A program made the translations under genes and the position numbers. This document shows, piece by piece, positions 19,443-31,119 of a stretch of DNA of 32,573 bases (positions within the stretch are counted from its first letter, which is position 1; each line of letters starts with the position of its first letter). The stretch spans positions 1 to 32,573 of the forward strand of contig JANXUC010000165.1 in the NCBI GenBank assembly GCA_025352065.1. Direction: 5' to 3'. A model generated the notes under the pieces. The model worked only from the letters and a program-made list of their open reading frames with translations. It did no database searches and was not told the DNA's origin. This stretch comes from Acidobacteriaceae bacterium (GTDB lineage Bacteria; Acidobacteriota; Terriglobia; Terriglobales; Acidobacteriaceae).

Positions 19443-20660
19443 ATGCACGCGATATCTTACGAAGTTCCCGCAGGCTGGATTCAGTACGATAAAGCGGAAA
19501 TATTCAACGAACTGACCACCGCGAAGGCGGCAGTAATAGCCTTACAGACGATGCCGTTTCAACGTAGGTGGGTTGAAGAACTCCAGCAGATTCAGCTCAA
19601 GATGGAAGTAGCGGGTACGTCGCAGATCGAAGGCGCAGACTTCGCTGGCAATGAGCTAGACACAGCGCTCAGGGCGGAGACGGCGGAAGAGCTTCTCACT
19701 CGGTCCCAAAAACAAGCGCACGCCGCCGTGAAAACGTACAAATGGATTGCTGCTTTGCCGGACGGTGTGCCCGTTAGCGCGGAGTTGATTTGCGAAATCC
19801 ATCGCAGAATCGTAGCCGATTGTGACGACGACCACTGTCCCCCTGGGCGCATTCGGTGGGCGGATCAAAACGTTACATTTGGAATGCCCAGGCACAGGGG
19901 AGCCATTGGCGGAAAGGAATGCGAGACAGCCTTCCAGCAATTGGCCCTTGAGGTCCAGACTACATTCAAAGGGCACGATCCCCTGATCCAAGCGCTTGCT
20001 TTGCACTATCACTTCGCGGCGATGCATCCATTTCTGGACGGCAACGGAAGAACGGCCAGAGTGCTAGAGGCCTTGATGCTCCAACGCGCCGGATTGAAGA
20101 ACTCCCTGTTCATCGCGATGTCCAATTATTATTACGAGGAGAAACGGCCCTACCTCGCTACCCTGGCTGCGGTGCGTGCGAGCGCGCACGATCTAACGTC
20201 GTTCTTGCAGTTTGGGCTGCGCGGAATTGCCCAGCAAAGCAAGAGATTAACACTTCTCATCAAGAAAGAAGTGTGCAAACAGCTCTTCCGAAACTTAATG
20301 CATGATCTTTTCGTCCGACTCGAAAGTACAAGAAAGCGAGTTATCGTCAAACGACAGCTACAATTGCTAGAGAAGCTCCTGGATACAGACGGTGCGGTAG
20401 AGTTTACGAAGCTGGCTGACTCCGTCAGAGAGCACTATGCCAAGCGCAAAGTTCCTTATCAGGCAATTGCCAGAGATGTGAATCGGTTATGGGCCTTAGG
20501 GGCGGTAAAAATAGAAAAAGTGGAAGTGGATCCGAATAAGCCGCCTGTTTTTTCCATTGAGGTAAATTTAGATTGGCCCAGCACCATAACCGATACAGAG
20601 TTCTTTGCGAAACTGGAAAATCTGCCGAAATCGAAAACTTATGCTTTCCTTTCCACCTAA
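19443..20660 (+). CDS. Fic family protein (AMP-transferase type, self-inhibited class)
   Basis: Predicted AMPylating or related nucleotide-transferring enzyme, 405 residues. The Fic core motif HPFLDGNGRTAR (195-206) is complete, including catalytic His195. An N-terminal inhibitory helix motif, T59-SQI-E63-G64, fits the (S/T)xxxE(G/N) pattern of class II Fic proteins, in which the glutamate blocks ATP binding. The flap region lies near 'ADQNVTFGMPRHRGAIGG'. Residues about 290-370 look like a winged-helix module (KRQLQLLEKLLDTDGAVEF), often seen in the Fic/DUF4172 group. It is probably cytoplasmic; targets are unknown. It is preceded by the AT-rich tract and overlapped at its 3' end by a small gene. 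Class II proteins usually carry their own inhibition, so no antitoxin is required. Confidence 0.92.
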   Translation: MHAISYEVPAGWIQYDKAEIFNELTTAKAAVIALQTMPFQRRWVEELQQIQLKMEVAGTSQIEGADFAGNELDTALRAETAEELLTRSQKQAHAAVKTYKWIAALPDGVPVSAELICEIHRRIVADCDDDHCPPGRIRWADQNVTFGMPRHRGAIGGKECETAFQQLALEVQTTFKGHDPLIQALALHYHFAAMHPFLDGNGRTARVLEALMLQRAGLKNSLFIAMSNYYYEEKRPYLATLAAVRASAHDLTSFLQFGLRGIAQQSKRLTLLIKKEVCKQLFRNLMHDLFVRLESTRKRVIVKRQLQLLEKLLDTDGAVEFTKLADSVREHYAKRKVPYQAIARDVNRLWALGAVKIEKVEVDPNKPPVFSIEVNLDWPSTITDTEFFAKLENLPKSKTYAFLST

Positions 20661-20862
20661 ATTACACGGCCAAGCCGATTCCAGAGTCGAAGCGATCCGG
20701 CGCTTAGACGAGACTCCGCCCACAGAAGCCGAGCTCGAAGAGCGGAAGTTATTCTGGGAGAGGATACAACGCGTCCATCAGGAATTTGCCAACCGATCTT
20801 TCAAAGATTCGCGCAAATTCCCCACTACGGAAGAAATGCAGCGCGAGGATCGAGAACGCTAG
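20641..20862 (+). CDS. Small charged protein overlapping the fic 3' end
   Basis: A 73-residue hydrophilic protein starting at ATG 20641, overlapping fic by 20 bases and ending 7 bases before the mscS start. It is rich in Glu, Arg and Lys, with a helical look (EAELEERKLFWERIQRVHQE), which resembles small regulatory or antitoxin proteins in size and charge. No known domain is recognised and no separate ribosome-binding site is evident, so translation would rely on coupling to fic. It might be an accessory or antitoxin partner; alternatively the frame is fortuitous. The overlap and its filling of nearly the whole fic-mscS gap support a real gene. Confidence 0.5.
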   Translation: MLSFPPKLHGQADSRVEAIRRLDETPPTEAELEERKLFWERIQRVHQEFANRSFKDSRKFPTTEEMQREDRER

Positions 20863-20869
20863 TCCCATC

Positions 20870-22750
20870 ATGAAACGAACTCCCCAACTCACCTTCGCTG
20901 TCCTGCTGCTGGTCTTAGCGCTCATCCTAACCGCATGGGTGCTGACTACTCCCGGAACCTTGCCGTTCCAAGGCAAATCGCAGACCACCCAGGCGAAGGA
21001 CGCCCAAGCGCAGGGTATTCCGCCAGAGTTCGCCGTGGACAAGCGACCCCTCGTCGTCGCGCGCGATCTCGCTGCGTGGGCTGGCAGTCCTGAAGAGCAA
21101 GACTTAGCCGCTGAGGCGGAAAAGACCGCCGACCACGAAGTGGATCTCGACTTCGCCAGCGCGCTGCGCCGCGTGAACGTTCACCCGCCAGCGCCGTCCA
21201 AGGAAGCCAAAGAGCTGGAGGCGCGCGTCCAGCAGATGGAAATCCAGATCAAAAAAGATCAGGATCGCGCCCTTGATCTGAAGCAAAAGGCGGAAAAGGC
21301 CGGGCTAGGCGAAGGGAACATACAGGGGCAGTCCGAGCTCGCCGACGCCCAGCTTGCGCTTGACGAAGACGAAATCGCCGACGCCAAGGGCGAGCTCGAA
21401 CGCGCCGGCGGTAATGTGCAAGCCAAGGTCGTCCACGCGCGCGAGGAGCACGAAGCGGCCGAAGGCGCACGCAGCAAGACGGTTTACGGCGGCGTGATCG
21501 CCAAACCGTCTGCATCTCCCAACAGCCTGCGCGCCCGGGTGCAGCAATGGAGCCAGGCGCGCTCCGCACAAGCTCAGATCCGGTCCGCGCAGCAACAAGC
21601 TACAGATGCCGTCGCCAACCTCGCCCACCAGCACGACGCGCTGGAAAAGAGAGTCCAGGAAGAGCAGGTAAAAAAGCAGTCGCTTGCGCAACAAGCCTCC
21701 AATAATGGAACAGATTCCTCCACCGCTCGCACTGCCAAGGAAGCCTCGGCGGCAGCATTGGTCTCCGTGCAGCAACTCTCCGAAGATCAGCGCGGCATGG
21801 CGGAACTCGACAAGCGCAGCCAGGATCATCAGGAACTGGTCAGTATCTACAGTCGCTGGATCGACACCGTCAAGCTGCAGCAGTGGGCCGCTTTCCACGC
21901 GATTCTGCAATCGCTGCTCTGGATCACGATCATCGCCTTGCTGGTGTACATCCTCAGCCGCCTCATTGAACGAGCTTTGTCGGACAGCACCATTTCCGAC
22001 CGCAAGCATTTGTTGACCTTGCGCACAGTCATCCGCTTTGCACTGAAAACGGCGGGGCTGCTCGCCATCGTATTTACGATCTTCGGTGTTCCAGAACAAA
22101 TGCCGACCGTTCTGGGACTTGCGGGTGCGGGTCTTACGGTGGCTTTGCAGGATTTCATCATCGGCTTCTGCGGCTGGTTCGTTCTCATGGGCCGGAACGG
22201 AATTCGCGTTGGCGATTTTGTTGAGATCAACGGCGTCGGCGGGGAAGTTGTCGAGATCGGCTTGCTGCGTACTGTAGTTCTGGAAACGGGAAGCTCGACC
22301 GGCTCCGGCTATCCCACCGGTCGCCAGGTTGCGTTCATCAACAGCTACGCGATCAAGGGACACTACTTTAACTTCTCGACTTCCGGCCAATGGCTCTGGG
22401 ATGAGATGGTGGTGCAGGTTCCGTCCGGACAAGACACCACTCCCGTGGCCGACAGTATTCTCAAGATCGTTACCGAAGATACAGAAAAGAACGCGCGCCT
22501 GGCGGAGCAAGAGTGGCAACGTGTTACTCAGCACTACGGTGTAAAGGCGTTTTCAGCCGCGCCGTCCATCAGCGTACGCCCCGCTGGCACGGGGGTCGAG
22601 GTCGTCGTGCGGTACATCACCCGCGCGCAGGAACGCTACGAAGTTCGCACGCGCTTGTATCAGGCGATTGTGGAACTGTTCCAGGGGAAGAGGAGTGTGA
22701 CGGTAGCAGGGTCTGAGCCGACGCTTCCCGGCAATGTGCCTGCGAGTTAG
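20870..22750 (+). CDS. MscS-family mechanosensitive channel with long coiled-coil N-terminus
   Basis: A 626-residue inner-membrane protein. Residues 1-25 form a signal or membrane segment (TPQLTFAVLLLVLALILTAW). Residues about 90-330 are highly charged and coiled-coil-like, rich in Ala, Gln, Glu and Lys. Membrane helices follow at about 341-362 and 387-407. The MscS pore helix is at about 412-440 (VLGLAGAGLTVALQDFIIGF), then the beta domain ('GIRVGDFVEINGVGGEVVEIGLLRT') and a C-terminal cytoplasmic domain to the end. The ATG at 20870 is preferred over an in-frame start at 20786 because it begins the signal segment, though its ribosome-binding site is weak. Pressure-release function is inferred from family; the extended domain, presumably periplasmic, is unlike the minimal channel and may sense the cell wall. 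Confidence 0.88.
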   Translation: MKRTPQLTFAVLLLVLALILTAWVLTTPGTLPFQGKSQTTQAKDAQAQGIPPEFAVDKRPLVVARDLAAWAGSPEEQDLAAEAEKTADHEVDLDFASALRRVNVHPPAPSKEAKELEARVQQMEIQIKKDQDRALDLKQKAEKAGLGEGNIQGQSELADAQLALDEDEIADAKGELERAGGNVQAKVVHAREEHEAAEGARSKTVYGGVIAKPSASPNSLRARVQQWSQARSAQAQIRSAQQQATDAVANLAHQHDALEKRVQEEQVKKQSLAQQASNNGTDSSTARTAKEASAAALVSVQQLSEDQRGMAELDKRSQDHQELVSIYSRWIDTVKLQQWAAFHAILQSLLWITIIALLVYILSRLIERALSDSTISDRKHLLTLRTVIRFALKTAGLLAIVFTIFGVPEQMPTVLGLAGAGLTVALQDFIIGFCGWFVLMGRNGIRVGDFVEINGVGGEVVEIGLLRTVVLETGSSTGSGYPTGRQVAFINSYAIKGHYFNFSTSGQWLWDEMVVQVPSGQDTTPVADSILKIVTEDTEKNARLAEQEWQRVTQHYGVKAFSAAPSISVRPAGTGVEVVVRYITRAQERYEVRTRLYQAIVELFQGKRSVTVAGSEPTLPGNVPAS

Positions 22751-25095: not shown

Positions 25096-25142
25096 TTTAG
25101 CGCGGCAGCTTAGCAAGCGGACGCACAATGGAGACCTCAGTC

Positions 25143-26273
25143 ATGAGAATGGTTTGTAAGTCGCTGATGCTGATTTTTCTGCTTCTCGCGATTGCGGGAA
25201 TTGCAAATCCGCAGATCGCAGTCGATGACGCCGTTTCCGCAAAAGTGGACGATGTCGTCCGTGCGCAACTGCGAAAACAGAAGATTCCCGGCATCGGCCT
25301 CGGCGTGACGCGCGATGGGAAGATCATCAAGGCCACCGGCTACGGACTCGCCAACGTGGAACTCAATGTCTCCGTGAAGCCGGAATCAATTTTCCAAACC
25401 GGATCGGTAGGGAAGCAATTTACGGCGACCGCCGTGATGATGTTGGTGGAGGAAGGTAAACTCGGGCTGGACGACAAGATCACCAAATATTTTCCTGAAG
25501 CTCCCGCAGCGTGGAAGGCCGTGACTGTCCGGCATTTACTTACGCACACGTCGGGCATCGCTGATTACGGCGGCGAGGAAAGCACGATGGGCAAAGGTGT
25601 GGTCAACTTTCGCCAGGACTACACGGAAGATGATCTCGTCCGCATTTTCTCAGCCATGCCAATGGACTTCCAGCCCGGCGAAAAGTGGAAATACAGCAAC
25701 ACAGGCTATGTGATTCTTGGCGTGCTGATTCACCGCGTCACCGGGAAGTTTTACGGCGATTTTTTGCAGGAGCGAATTTTTCATCCGCTAGGGATGACAT
25801 CGACAAGAATCATCAGCGAGGTGGATATCATTCCCGGTCGTACCACCGGATATCGCCTGCTGAAGGGAGAATTGAAAAATCAGGAGTGGGTCTCGCCCTC
25901 GCTCAACACCACGGCGGATGGCGCGCTCTACACCAACGTGTACGACCTGGCAAAATGGGACGCGGCGCTCTACACCGAGAAGTTGCTGAAGAAAGCCAGC
26001 TTCGATCAAATGTGGACGCCCGTGAAGCTCAATAATGGAACAAACTATAACTACGGCTTCGGATGGGGTGTTCAGGAAGCGAATGGCCACCGCCTGCTGG
26101 CGCATGATGGAGCCTGGCAGGGTTTCACCATGAACATTTCGCGCTATGTGGATGACCGGTTAACGATTGTTGTCTTTACCAATCTCGACGAAAATAATTC
26201 TCGCCCGGCCGCGATTGCAAGGGCTGTAGCAGCGATCTATATCCCCGCACTCGCCATTTCAGAAAAGAAATGA
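25143..26273 (+). CDS. Exported serine hydrolase, beta-lactamase class C / PBP-like fold
   Basis: A 376-residue protein with a signal peptide ([19 protein letters not shown], cleavage near residue 22). The catalytic SxxK is SVGK (Ser88, Lys91) in '[10 protein letters not shown]', and the YxN motif is YSN (Tyr184) in '[13 protein letters not shown]'. Family segments DDKITKYFP and [11 protein letters not shown] are also present. Members act as esterases, D-aminopeptidases, carboxypeptidases or beta-lactamases; nothing here proves antibiotic resistance. The start is set by GGAG at 25131-25134, nine bases before ATG 25143; an in-frame ATG at 25128 has no such site. It converges with the M28 peptidase gene, 4 bases apart. 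Confidence 0.92.
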
Positions 26274-26277
26274 GCGA

Positions 26278-27711
26278 CTATTGCCTCGGCAACGGCTCCG
26301 GCAAATTTGCCAGCGCATAAGCTAACACGGCCGCAGCTGCCACGTTTTCCTGCAGCTCGTGCGGCACAATTTTGTCCAGCGTGTCGGCGGGTGTGTGGTG
26401 ATAGTTGAAGTAAGTGCGACCATCCTGCATGATTCCAAATGTCGGAACACCAGCTTCGGCCATAGGTGAAATATCCGCTTCCACCTCTTCGGAGCTGACG
26501 CTGAACACATTCGCTCCAAATGTTGCCAGTATTTTTTCCAGCGGCTCAAGCTGGGGCAGAGCAGCGGCCGAAATCTTCGCGTTGAAACCCATTGGATGTC
26601 CCGCGCCTCGGTCGCTTTCAATCGCAGCGACATGGTTCGCAAGTTCTCCTGCATGAGCCTTCGCATATCCGGTGCCGCCGCGCAGACCGCTTTCTTCGTT
26701 CATCCAGGCAACCACGCGGACGGTTCTTTTCGGATGTAAGTGCAACCTCGCCATCAACTGTACCGCATCCATCGCAATCGCAACTCCAGCCGCGTCGTCA
26801 ATCGCGCCAGTGCCAAGATCCCAGGAATCAAGATGCCCCGAAACGATCACAACTTGCTCCGGATGTTCTCTACCTTTCAAATCCGCAACAACGTTGTAGC
26901 CCGGAACTTCAGGCAGAAGTTGCGGCGTCAGGGTCAAATGCAAGCGCACGGTGCCTTGCTGCGCTAAATGTGAGATCAACTCAGCGTCTTCCGCACTCAC
27001 CGCACCCGCCGGAATTCCAGCCGGCACGCTATAGCCCGTATGCGGAATGCGGTAGTCCGCCCCGCCGACGGATCGCACGAGCGATGCCGCGGCTCCCAGT
27101 TCCGCTGCTGCCTTAGCCCCTTGCCCGCGATACTGCACCGCTTCGCCGTAGGCGTCACGCCAATGTCCGCCCGCAGCTTTCCGCGTATCAAACTTCACGT
27201 TGAATAGCACGATCTTGCCCGCAACCTTATCCTTGCCTAGTGCCTTCAATTCGTCGAAGCTGCGCACAACCACCACTTCATTCGTCAATCCCTCTGGAGC
27301 CGTAGCCGTGCTTCCGCCCAGCGCCGTCACCACAACCTTTTGAATAGTTCCCGGAGTTTGACCAGGCCACGCAGCGAGCTCAGCCGTCTCTGCGCCACGG
27401 ACCCAATGCGGAACCATCACTTGCTCCAGTCGCGCATCAAGACCGGCCTGACGCAACGTATCTATTACATGATGCGCCGCCGCATCGGCTTGCGGCGAGC
27501 CAGTCGGCCGCGCACCAATATTCTCTGTGAGGTACGCCACCTGCTGGTAGGCATACTCGCTGGATAGCGCGGCCTCGCGCAGAGTCTCGAGTTCGTGCAC
27601 GAGCTCCGGAGCGTAAACCACCGCAGGTTCTTTCACCGGCACCATCGCCGGACGCTGCCCCCAAAGCATTTCAGAGACACATAAAAACAGAACACAATTC
27701 AGTTTGCGCAT
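26278..27711 (-). CDS. Exported M28-family metallopeptidase
   Basis: A 477-residue zinc aminopeptidase or carboxypeptidase with a signal peptide (MRKLNCVLFLCVSEMLWGQ). An apical PA-like domain is inserted at about residues 130-270. The two-zinc site is intact: His293 in SGHLDSWD, Asp305 in GAIDDAAG, the catalytic Glu339 with ligand Glu340 in MNEESGL, Asp367 in ESDRG and a histidine of YHHTPADT (438-439). It resembles the plasma glutamate carboxypeptidase group. The ATG at 27711 gives the signal peptide directly; the longer frame overlaps the upstream TldD-like gene. The gap from that gene is 49 bases, so these probably form one exported-peptidase operon. Confidence 0.93.
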   Translation of the reverse strand: MRKLNCVLFLCVSEMLWGQRPAMVPVKEPAVVYAPELVHELETLREAALSSEYAYQQVAYLTENIGARPTGSPQADAAAHHVIDTLRQAGLDARLEQVMVPHWVRGAETAELAAWPGQTPGTIQKVVVTALGGSTATAPEGLTNEVVVVRSFDELKALGKDKVAGKIVLFNVKFDTRKAAGGHWRDAYGEAVQYRGQGAKAAAELGAAASLVRSVGGADYRIPHTGYSVPAGIPAGAVSAEDAELISHLAQQGTVRLHLTLTPQLLPEVPGYNVVADLKGREHPEQVVIVSGHLDSWDLGTGAIDDAAGVAIAMDAVQLMARLHLHPKRTVRVVAWMNEESGLRGGTGYAKAHAGELANHVAAIESDRGAGHPMGFNAKISAAALPQLEPLEKILATFGANVFSVSSEEVEADISPMAEAGVPTFGIMQDGRTYFNYHHTPADTLDKIVPHELQENVAAAAVLAYALANLPEPLPRQ

Positions 27712-27760: not shown

Positions 27761-29407
27761 TTACGGAGCCGACTGCAGCACGGGCGCTGGATACTCCGGC
27801 AACTTATCCTTGCTGGCATCCAGACGCTTCACCTGCAATTCATCGAATAACAACGACGGATTGATAATCGACTGAGGCACCGCGCCGATGCGATTGGAGG
27901 CCTCAAGGTCATCTCCCGCTGCAATCACGTCACTGCGCACAGAACGCGTGTCGAGTTCGCCAAAGAGCCCACCTCGCACCAGTTCCTCGTGGCCATCACT
28001 CACCCAAACGCGGCGCAAAACACGCGGCGCAGATCGGCCCCCCATGCTCTCGACGAAGTAGCCGTATTTTAAATCGTGTTGTTTCGCCAGCTCGATCAAC
28101 TTCTTCTTGAGTTCAGCCGCAGGCGTCGGCTCCGAAGACTCCACGATCAGAACGGCTGATTCAGGCCCGGGGGCGCGGCCCAATCCTGCGCGGCCGTGGC
28201 CGTTTGACTCCGGAAAATCTCGGATGGGCTGGCGGCCAATCAGATAATTCGCCAATTTACCTTTTTCAATCACGGAAACCCGCTGTGCGCGCACTCCCTC
28301 GTCGTCGACCGCATAATTCCCAACCAGCGTGCGGTCTTTGAAGGCCGTCATCGTCGGATCGTCTCTTACCGAAAGAAATTCAGGCAACACGCGACTCTTA
28401 TATTCCGCCGACCACTGTCCTGTGGTCCGTGCAGGCGCCCCTAGCTGAGGTTTTTGCCCCAGCGCATTACGCCCAATTAAGTTGTCCACAATCGATTCCG
28501 CCGCCCCAGGAGCAAACAGAACGGGGCCGCGATAGTCTTCGTCAGCCACCGGCGCTTCCCGCAAGTCCTTTAAAGACGTCAGCACCTTGGCGGACTGTTC
28601 CAAAAATTTGTCACGCGATGGAAGTTCGGAAAGCCGCGTCGTCGCCCAATTCCAATCGCGATCCAGTCGCATGCCGTCCGCAGCTTGCGTTGATCCGTTC
28701 ACGCGCAGAGCAAACACGGTCTTGCCTTCGCGAACCACACTCCCTTCCGTGTTTACAAAATAACGGTTAGTGGCGGAAGCTCGCAGGCTCGCTTCAAAAT
28801 CTTGGACCTCCGGATCACGACGATAAAGCGCACTTGCCGCTTGCAGCGCCTCAATCCACGCCTGCGAATCGATTTCCAGTTTCACCAGCGGCAATATCGA
28901 TTCCACCGGACTCGCCTTGGCAAAGTCATCCACGGGAATTTCTATATTCTTGTCTTTCAATGCGGCTTGCTTCTGGGAAAGCGCTTCGCCCGCTGTTTTA
29001 TAGGCGCGATCGGTCGTCAACCAAAGCTGTCGCCGCAAGGCTTCCACGTCGTCTTCCACTGCTGCAATGTTGACGGTCCCTTCACCCTCTCCAAAGCAAC
29101 TATCCTGCTTGTAGCTACCAACTCGAACCACCACGCGCAGCAGTCGAGCATGTGTTTTGTTCTGCAATCGCAACGCCCCAAACACGGTTTCCGCCGAGAA
29201 CTCGTCCACATCGCCAATGCTGTATTCGATGTAATAAGGCGCGGCCACATCATCGAGCTTGAGCTTCGCCTTGGATCGGTTCAACTCTTCCAGCATCGCC
29301 CGCAGCACAGGGTCATTCGAGGATTTCGCCGCTTCTGTCCCAGCGCCCGCAGCAAATCCGCATATCGAAAACAGAACGAACAGCGAGGCAACCAGAATCC
29401 CCTTCAT
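27761..29407 (-). CDS. Exported TldD/PmbA-family protein lacking the metal site (TldE-like)
   Basis: A 548-residue TldD/PmbA-fold protein with a signal peptide (MKGILVASLFVLFSICGFAA). It is clearly paralogous to its upstream neighbour: both have the 'PYYIEYS' / 'PYFLSYS' N-terminal strand, 'YFVNTEGS' / 'YFVSTEGS', the shared 'VLPEFLSV.DDPTM' segment, 'DDEGV' and the SNGHGR stretch. At the position of the partner's HExxxH it reads VDNLIG (about residues 307-312), and the C-terminal cysteine ligand is also missing. It is therefore predicted inactive as a protease and may be a structural subunit, as TldE is to TldD. Its ATG overlaps the upstream gene by 4 bases, so equal co-expression is likely. 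Confidence 0.88.
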   Translation of the reverse strand: MKGILVASLFVLFSICGFAAGAGTEAAKSSNDPVLRAMLEELNRSKAKLKLDDVAAPYYIEYSIGDVDEFSAETVFGALRLQNKTHARLLRVVVRVGSYKQDSCFGEGEGTVNIAAVEDDVEALRRQLWLTTDRAYKTAGEALSQKQAALKDKNIEIPVDDFAKASPVESILPLVKLEIDSQAWIEALQAASALYRRDPEVQDFEASLRASATNRYFVNTEGSVVREGKTVFALRVNGSTQAADGMRLDRDWNWATTRLSELPSRDKFLEQSAKVLTSLKDLREAPVADEDYRGPVLFAPGAAESIVDNLIGRNALGQKPQLGAPARTTGQWSAEYKSRVLPEFLSVRDDPTMTAFKDRTLVGNYAVDDEGVRAQRVSVIEKGKLANYLIGRQPIRDFPESNGHGRAGLGRAPGPESAVLIVESSEPTPAAELKKKLIELAKQHDLKYGYFVESMGGRSAPRVLRRVWVSDGHEELVRGGLFGELDTRSVRSDVIAAGDDLEASNRIGAVPQSIINPSLLFDELQVKRLDASKDKLPEYPAPVLQSAP

Positions 29408-31119
29408 TGCCCCACCGCCTTGGCGCCTTTGTCATCTTTATCAAACCCGGGTGGAGGCAGCAACGGCGGCCTCATTCTCCCGTGTCCACGCTTCTGCACT
29501 TCAATTTCCGAAAACAACATCGACGGAGCCGCTGCCGAGACCGGAACACTGCCAGACTCCGCTCCACAAATTCCGTTGAACACCTGCTGCGTGTCTCCCG
29601 TTACAACAATCCGGTTCAGCGCCGCCAGCGGTGTCCCCACAATATCCACGCCACGCACTAATTCATCCGGCTTGCCATCCGGATAAACCTTCCACACCAT
29701 CACCGGCAGAATTTGAAACGCTTGCGGAGAGAAACGCGTCGTCAAAGTAAATCCACCCTGAATATCTTCGAAGTAAAGCCCGTAGGCCTTACCTTGCTTC
29801 TTAATTTCATCGATCAACTTCTGCCGCATTTCGGAATCTTTCACCGTGCGCGTCGAACTCACAATCAGGTTTCCCTGCCGCCCGGTCTCCATCAGCCCCG
29901 CCTGCGATCGACCGTGGCCATTCGACTTATCGAAGTGATTGATCGGCATCCGCGACATCAGAAAATTCTTCAATGTCCCGCTCTGGATCAATTCCACACG
30001 GCTCGCCGCGACACCTTCATCGTCAAACGCGTAGTAGCCCGCCAGTTCCACACCATTCAATACCCGCATCGTCGGATCGTCTGCCACACTCAGAAATTCC
30101 GGAAGCACCGGCTGCCCAACCTTCTTAGTAAATGTCTGCCCTTCCTGCTCATCGCGTTGCCGATGTCCTTCCAACCGGTGACCCAGTACTTCATGAAAAA
30201 ACACGGCCGCCGCACGTCCCGAAAGCAGAACAGGTACCGTTGCCGGCTCACTCAGCGGTGCAGCTCTCAAATGCTGAATATCTGCCGCCATCTTCTCAAT
30301 CTTCTTCGTGACCTCAGCCTCCGAAGGCAGCTTGTTCGCCGAAGTCGCCTGAAAAGTCTCCACCCGCATCAGGTCCATACCATCTTCCGCATGCGTCGAA
30401 GCCGTAATCACCATCCGAATCATCGCCGATGATGTAACCACGCGGCTACCTTCCGTCGAAACAAAATAGGTTGTCGACTTCTGCGCTACCAACGTCACAT
30501 ACGACTCTTCCACTTCGGGATATTTCCTGAGCAATCCGGAATACCGTCGCGCCTGTTCTTCCCACTTCTTCTGGTCAACTCCCAGCGGAGCGGCTTCCCC
30601 CGTAACGCTCTTCTGCGCAGCCTCTTCTGAAAAGTCCGCCGACGTATCTTCTTCCTTCGCGCGAACCGCCGTCTGCGTCTTCACATTCAGGAACGCCCGC
30701 TGCGCCTTGCGATACCCCTCGTACGTCAGCTTCCATAGCACACGCGCCGTCGCGTCCGGATCATCTCCGAGCGGCAACAAGCCGGACTCGATGCCCGACG
30801 AACGATTTTCGTCATGCGTGTTGTCCAGCTTTGTCGACCCCACCCGTGTCTGCACATCTGCTTGTCGCGCACGCAATTGTCGAGAATTCAACAGCGCCCC
30901 CTCGCTCGCCGTCACCGCAGTAAGCTCGTTGTCGGTTACCGAATAACTCAGGAAATAGGGAGCCGGATCCCGCTTGCCAAGTTCAGTCTTGGCGCGACCC
31001 AATTCTTTTTCCATGGCGGAAAGCAGCGGTTGCGAAATACCGGCCTGCGCGGAAGCCAACTGCCCAGCAAAATTGAAAGCAAACTGAAGGACTGCTAGAC
31101 GAAACAACGCGGATATCAT
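29404..31119 (-). CDS. Exported TldD-family metalloprotease (intact HExxxH)
   Basis: A 571-residue TldD/PmbA-family protease with a signal peptide (FRLAVLQFAFNFAGQLASAQ). The zinc site HEVLGH (His309, Glu310, His314) lies within 'FFHEVLGHRLEGHRQRDEQE', and the third-ligand cysteine is in 'FNGICGAESGSVPVSAAAPS'. Classical TldD is a cytoplasmic partner of TldE that trims peptides such as microcin B17 and CcdA through a closed chamber; an exported version should act in the periplasm or outside. The downstream paralogue lacks the site, so a heterodimer is predicted. ATG 31119 has AGGA just upstream. The gap before it begins with a perfect 15-bp hairpin at 31144. Confidence 0.9.
   Translation of the reverse strand: MISALFRLAVLQFAFNFAGQLASAQAGISQPLLSAMEKELGRAKTELGKRDPAPYFLSYSVTDNELTAVTASEGALLNSRQLRARQADVQTRVGSTKLDNTHDENRSSGIESGLLPLGDDPDATARVLWKLTYEGYRKAQRAFLNVKTQTAVRAKEEDTSADFSEEAAQKSVTGEAAPLGVDQKKWEEQARRYSGLLRKYPEVEESYVTLVAQKSTTYFVSTEGSRVVTSSAMIRMVITASTHAEDGMDLMRVETFQATSANKLPSEAEVTKKIEKMAADIQHLRAAPLSEPATVPVLLSGRAAAVFFHEVLGHRLEGHRQRDEQEGQTFTKKVGQPVLPEFLSVADDPTMRVLNGVELAGYYAFDDEGVAASRVELIQSGTLKNFLMSRMPINHFDKSNGHGRSQAGLMETGRQGNLIVSSTRTVKDSEMRQKLIDEIKKQGKAYGLYFEDIQGGFTLTTRFSPQAFQILPVMVWKVYPDGKPDELVRGVDIVGTPLAALNRIVVTGDTQQVFNGICGAESGSVPVSAAAPSMLFSEIEVQKRGHGRMRPPLLPPPGFDKDDKGAKAVGQ

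Follow-up and report, generated by a model that had tools for sequence, protein, structure and literature searches.

TldD/E proteases are widespread. In Escherichia coli, TldD and TldE form a dimer shaped as a hollow sphere, which cuts unfolded peptides without clear sequence preference (PMC5810440, PMC10885120). As described in PMC5810440, both subunits are needed and the metal site, with His262, His267 and Cys454 as ligands, is located in TldD alone, and TldE has been suggested in PMC10885120 to be a copy of TldD without the catalytic residues. Here we analyse two overlapping genes, A and B, on contig JANXUC010000165.1 of an Acidobacteriaceae bacterium (assembly GCA_025352065.1); the whole stretch of 32,573 nucleotides, positions 1 to 32,573 of the forward strand, is referred to below as the window. 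With a probability of about 0.72, we conclude that the two genes encode a TldD/E-like metalloprotease that is exported, most likely to the periplasm, with A as its catalytic and B as its non-catalytic subunit. The evidence that carries this reading is seen in the sequences themselves, namely motif retention in A and loss in B, pairing and overlap of the two genes, their folds, selection on B, a joint clade of A and B distinct from TldD and TldE, and natural fusions, and from it we infer export, heterodimer formation, metal binding, proteolysis and the nature of the substrate.

With the E. coli pair (TldD and TldE, the latter also called PmbA; MEROPS M103; structures 5nj5, 5njc and 5njf), the locus shares the fold, a HExxxH motif and a cysteine in one subunit, and a partner that is free of the motif. 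It differs in that A and B have signal-like N-termini in most relatives and in that B does not group with TldE. A is also longer, at 571 amino acids against 481 positions in the TldD model, and reads CGAES where TldD has CGKEG, so that Lys456 of TldD corresponds to Ala520. At the clamp-tethering positions of TldD, Glu270 is kept as Glu317, whereas Asp272 corresponds to His319 in the window and is variable in relatives, at least one of which (L081) has Asp. Among the open-paper matches listed, mostly the best 12 to 25, there was no description of an exported TldD/E-like pair of active and inactive subunits. Two reports of TldD-type proteins outside the cytoplasm may be relevant, one of which uses the name U62, which we take to be an older MEROPS name for the TldD superfamily. 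The Myxococcus xanthus "Peptidase U62" MXAN_2519, linked to A and B by its name, is listed among vesicle proteins (PMC4158809), and TldD is included in a Leptospira exoproteome (PMC5881292).

Both A and B belong to the PmbA/TldD superfamily, each passing the cut-off of 22 for the PmbA/TldD C-terminal domain PF19289 (Table 1). The central domain PF19290 is sub-threshold in both, and neither gave a match to the N-terminal domain PF01523 at E up to 1. A falls below the NCBIfam TldD equivalog cut-offs (NF040952, 85.5 against 635; NF008006, 54.4 against 513). When compared by sequence with solved structures, A matched E. coli TldD (E 1.6e-15) and B had no match at E up to 1; within the window the two proteins are 34% identical. 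The first-pass annotation of this DNA had assigned HEVLGH and a C-terminal cysteine to the upstream gene and VDNLIG, with no cysteine, to the second, and this is what the alignments give: VDNLIG occupies amino acids 307-312 of B, in the columns matching HEVLGH, and no cysteine stands in the column of B that matches Cys518. The start of B sits inside the stop codon of A.

Table 1. Features of the A/B locus and its downstream neighbour in the window (ORF, open reading frame; aa, amino acids; AF2, AlphaFold2; pLDDT, predicted local distance difference test)
Feature	Coordinates	Strand	Basis
Gene A, TldD-like catalytic subunit, putatively exported	29404..31119	-	ORF, 571 aa; PF19289 108.6 bits; AF2 model, pLDDT 87.5
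Gene B, TldD-fold pseudoenzyme, putatively exported	27761..29407	-	ORF, 548 aa; PF19289 68.3 bits; AF2 model, pLDDT 92.4
Putative signal peptide of A (aa 1-24, ASA/Q)	31048..31119	-	Own scorer 2.86, below cut-off 3
HEVLGH of A (aa 309-314), HExxxH metal-binding motif	30178..30195	-	Aligned with 5nj5_A
Cys518 of A in CGAES, expected third metal ligand	29566..29568	-	Aligned with C of CGKEG, Cys454 of E. coli TldD
ATGA overlap, stop of A and start of B	29404..29407	-	Junction sequence, 4 nt
Putative signal peptide of B (aa 1-19)	29351..29407	-	Own scorer 4.02
VDNLIGR of B (aa 307-313), site of lost HExxxH	28469..28489	-	Alignment with A
M28 peptidase with PA domain, signal-like start, local companion only	26278..27711	-	PF04389 110.6 bits; PF02225 24.2 bits

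Conservation of the pair was measured in an unbiased survey, in which whole-protein searches of 297 genomes from the phylum of the window found A (E < 1e-50) in 46 genomes, 44 of which have B directly downstream. In one genome (G290) the contig holds just the end of A. After removal of one A fragment (L086), HExxxH is kept in 45/45 A rows and in 0/45 B rows; the C-terminal cysteine is present in 44 of the 45 A rows, the remaining row being cut by a frameshift, and in none of the 45 B rows, two of which end before the matching column. A second, named set of 80 loci was collected with the patterns CGAESG and FHE[IV][LF]GHR and includes Edaphobacter, Granulicella, Silvibacterium and Terriglobia metagenome-assembled genomes (MAGs). 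It yielded full-length A from 73 loci and full-length B from 68. The A motif was selected in this set by construction (74/74 including the window) and is hence no evidence, the unbiased count being that of the survey set; HExxxH is absent from all 69 B proteins, the window counted. Three loci have no adjoining B, two of them at contig ends (L138 and L140) and one with B ∼9 kb away (L158). With start codons chosen by script, the exact 4-nt overlap recurs in 14/43 pairs of the survey set and 46/65 pairs of the named set. The conserved adjacency and the absence of the motif from homologues of the second gene, both of which bear on the first-pass reading of the locus as a matched active and inactive pair, are thus borne out across relatives, which include many soil bacteria.

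Three further loci from these searches deserve mention in their own right. A contig from a record titled as a Rhodoferax MAG (L123, genome G480) carries an A with 55% identity to that of the window; it is probably mis-binned, since no full-length match to A was found in the other 199 genomes of that phylum. An A-like gene with HEAVGH and CGAES, a weak N-terminal signal score (2.73) and no B found beside it (L085:5950-7599) is possibly a solitary relative. At L084:2165-5670 a frameshift splits A, with a piece matching its C-terminus in another frame.

Signal-like N-termini were identified with a scorer of our own, which considers the hydrophobic core, charge and cleavage site against a self-set cut-off of 3 and is not a trained predictor; start codons were picked by signal score, which raises the values. 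Scores of at least 3 were reached by 40/45 A and 44/45 B proteins in the survey set and by 68/73 A and 66/68 B proteins in the named set. In a first control set of TldD/TldE-type proteins from close relatives, which held few motif-free partners, 6/35 reached the cut-off. A second control set of 40 proteins, ten from each of four cytoplasmic TldD/TldE types, gave 1/40 with starts near the domain start, and 10/40, mostly of one type, with lenient starts up to 60 residues inside the domain. The first-pass annotation had given both genes of the window signal peptides. This agrees with B, which scores 4.02, and with most relatives of both proteins, but A of the window scores 2.86, under the cut-off, so that its signal peptide taken alone is plausible rather than clear and its case for export is made by the signal-like N-termini of its relatives. 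The broader proposal, that an active/inactive logic operates outside the cytoplasm, is well supported by those N-termini together with the motif counts and the pairing. The RR.F pattern of twin-arginine translocation (Tat) signals was found in just 1/73 A and 1/68 B proteins of the named set, and the lipobox pattern likewise in 1/73 and 1/68. On these counts we rejected Tat export and lipoproteins, and the general secretory (Sec) pathway is therefore the likely route for both A and B. The cysteine content of A is in line with export: a single cysteine after residue 40, the expected metal ligand, is found in 66/74 A proteins; two cytoplasmic TldD types have 3-6 and 5-8 cysteines.

Single-chain AlphaFold2 models, built from alignments of 57 A and 59 B sequences (56/73 A and 58/66 B plus the window, two B rows holding X having been removed beforehand), predict the TldD fold over both domains in each protein, with mean pLDDT of 87.5 for A and 92.4 for B. 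By VIA-align, both models have E. coli TldD as their best match, A with 5nj5_A (448 residues superposed at 3.5 Å, Z 35.6) and B with 5nj5_C (432 residues at 3.5 Å, Z 32.8). For B, the TldE/PmbA structures follow at Z 25.9-28.9; the first unrelated rows have Z 5.2 and 5.6. For both models, the superposition on E. coli TldD covers nearly the whole mature chain. Foldseek is less decisive on B, with E 1.7e-27 and a template modelling (TM) score by target of 0.70 for TldD, and E 3.1e-26 and TM 0.74 for PmbA.

B is under purifying selection. Across 11 close genome pairs, in which some genomes recur and the synonymous rate (dS) exceeds 1 in some, the ratio of nonsynonymous to synonymous substitution rates (dN/dS) is 0.032-0.139 for A and 0.045-0.191 for B, and we rejected a decaying pseudogene on these values. 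A has 106 invariant columns; at 52 of them at least 80% of B proteins retain the residue, and 25 are lost in B; the lost columns include H309, H314 and C518, with the proviso that the motif columns of A were selected by the search patterns of the named set.

The genome of the window encodes two more TldD/TldE-type pairs (on contigs C80 and C9; L087 and L088), and thus three active/inactive TldD-fold pairs in all, in each of which the active gene precedes the motif-free one. The C80 and C9 pairs differ from A and B in having PF01523, for which they give the only matches in the genome, several cysteines in the active subunit and few signal-like N-termini among proteins of these types, and they fall in separate clades. 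A 67-protein tree places A and B together in a single clade, distinct from each of the four canonical groups (Shimodaira-Hasegawa-like approximate likelihood ratio test, SH-aLRT, 100), and requires two changes between the active and inactive states. Constraining all motif-free proteins into a single clade was rejected (log-likelihood 76.8 lower; approximately unbiased test, p-AU 0.006). In a second tree of the C-terminal domain with the motif columns removed, built from 41 of the 67 proteins (17 A and B and 24 canonical), the A+B clade has support of 99/99; A and B are less cleanly separated there, A not forming one side of a branch. Long branches meet in both trees, the program issued long-branch warnings, and all canonical reference proteins were drawn from relatives of the window's genome. 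Because A and B form a clade apart from canonical TldD and TldE, the loss of the motif in B looks independent of that in TldE, a case that is strong but not final. On balance we lean towards a scenario in which the TldD fold has given rise to an obligate heterodimer of enzyme and pseudoenzyme at least twice, the present lineage having duplicated after leaving the cytoplasm, lost the metal site of its second copy independently of TldE and, in some bacteria, fused into a single-chain heterodimer; Acidobacteriota and some Gemmatimonadota would then possess an exported, self-compartmentalised protease that is so far undescribed.

Natural fusions of A and B were found outside the phylum of the window. 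In the Gemmatimonadetes phylum (that of the genome of L168), A is present in 5/101 genomes (E < 1e-50), three of which carry A and B as one open frame (L228, L229 and L202). Measured from stop to stop, the fusions span 1172 codons in L228 and 1196 codons in L229, with L202 a partial copy at a contig end. The active half comes first and HExxxH occurs once, being absent from the surviving part of L202; the L228 fusion keeps the cysteine, within CRAES. Inspection of the sequences by eye revealed nothing signal-like between the two halves. In the B tree, L228 clusters with L202, and L229 has the unfused G479 as its sister in the A and B trees alike (88 and 100), the A tree lacking the L202 fragment. 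Given these placements, two separate fusion events would be the simplest account, a single fusion with later splits being the less simple alternative. Indirect as they are, the fusions provide the best support in our data for a 1:1 complex of A and B. In another phylum, A was found in 4/17 genomes. In L233 and L234, from two genomes of one phylum, the interval between A and B has a shared layout of four ORFs, comparable in size and alike in order, one of which carries a secretion-tail domain (seen in L234); an M23 peptidase follows B.

The neighbourhood of the pair was compared over 107 loci, many of which are cut by contig ends and which represent at least two genomes twice (L046/L118 and L060/L132). 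In the window, an M28 peptidase gene follows B in the same orientation; counted from its first ATG it overlaps B, and a start at 27711, ∼50 nt past the end of B, gives the signal-like N-terminus MRKLNCVLFLCVSEMLWGQ. The placement of the pair in a run with an exported M28 peptidase, as first proposed, therefore stands for the window but is a local feature: M28 homologues (blastp E up to 1e-5) are near the pair in 4/107 loci, the window included, and we rejected M28 as a fixed third component on this count. The largest cluster of neighbours is an M48/CAAX-type protease on the opposite strand (41/107 loci), followed by an ORF without a Pfam match (35/107) and a lytic transglycosylase-like protein with DPBB and SPOR domains (31/107, on the opposite strand in all 31).

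Several observations weigh against reading A and B as an exported heterodimer. A and B are on separate contigs in G051, no B was found beside the A-like gene of G033, and the two genes are ∼9 kb apart in L233 and L234. The signal score of A in the window lies within the control range. The cytoplasmic motif-free C9_E type has 0-2 cysteines, so a low count does not set exported members apart. No conserved genomic partner that could serve as a clue to the substrate emerged among the 107 loci, even the top cluster reaching just 41. The cases of G051 and G033, and the identity of just 34% between A and B in the window, would also suit an arrangement in which homodimers of A are active by themselves and B, not necessarily part of the shell, acts as a regulator, inhibitor or chaperone. 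There is precedent for this in PMC5810440, where E. coli TldD and TldE are each described as forming homodimers too and an active Sulfolobus TldD homodimer is reported. We nevertheless consider it unlikely, as the A-B order is adjacent in 44/46 genomes and often overlapping, much of the conserved core is retained in B, and the fusions, most simply two, have no signal-like stretch before the B half. Retention of the pair in the cytoplasm, its hydrophobic N-termini unused, we regard as very improbable, if marginally less so than we would otherwise have judged, because A of the window scores within the control range of an untrained scorer; the signal-like N-termini in 40/45 A and 44/45 B proteins, against 1/40 controls under the stricter start rule, point the other way, as do the two other TldD/TldE-type pairs that the genome already has and from both of which the A+B clade stands apart.

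The remaining alternatives accept export and differ on the ancestry or chemistry of the pair. That B is a TldE/PmbA orthologue which gained a signal peptide together with TldD would fit the same gene logic, TldE being without the motif too, and Foldseek does place B nearly as close to TldE/PmbA (3.1e-26) as to TldD (1.7e-27); the meeting of long branches in the trees also leaves room for it. We disfavour it as highly doubtful given the support for the A+B clade (SH-aLRT 100, and 99/99 on the C-terminal domain without motif columns), the rejection of a single motif-free clade (p-AU 0.006) and the VIA-align ranking of B, with TldD at Z 32.8 and TldE/PmbA at most 28.9. Slightly more credible, and still improbable, is that the pair is no peptidase but an exported amide hydrolase or deacylase with a small molecule or cell-wall compound as its substrate. 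N-deacetylases are among the members of the wider family, to judge by a review title in the reference list of PMC10885120; A has Ala for Lys456 of TldD and, in the window, His at the position of Asp272, which varies in relatives; and a lytic transglycosylase-like gene is near the pair in 31/107 loci. Set against this are the retention of the full TldD fold with all metal ligands and the opposite orientation of that neighbour in all 31 loci.

Under the exported heterodimer reading, A and B would be translated from the overlapping genes, leave the cytoplasm through the Sec pathway and assemble as a closed shell. The metal would be held by A, through H309, H314 and C518, and B, an obligate dead half lacking a metal site, would complete the cavity and the channel for the substrate. 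If it behaves like E. coli TldD/E, the complex may cut unfolded peptides that are small enough to enter the cavity, showing little sequence preference, and a peptide-processing role of this kind, as the first-pass annotation had also envisaged, could serve to clear or recycle peptides of the cell envelope. In close relatives of the window, the exported downstream M28 aminopeptidase may finish the degradation. If this is correct, the existence of a second such pair of active and inactive halves, separately evolved and in another compartment, would suggest that the TldD fold needs its dead half for function and that this half is no historical accident. The single-chain fusions offer a ready construct for solving the structure of the complex and testing the role of the dead half.

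Elsewhere in the window, a beta-lactamase-fold serine hydrolase with a signal-like start (25128-26273, plus strand; PF00144, 256 bits) is convergent with the M28 gene, and a Fic-domain protein (19443-20660, plus strand; PF02661, 58.4 bits) lies upstream of a mechanosensitive-channel-like protein (20786-22750).

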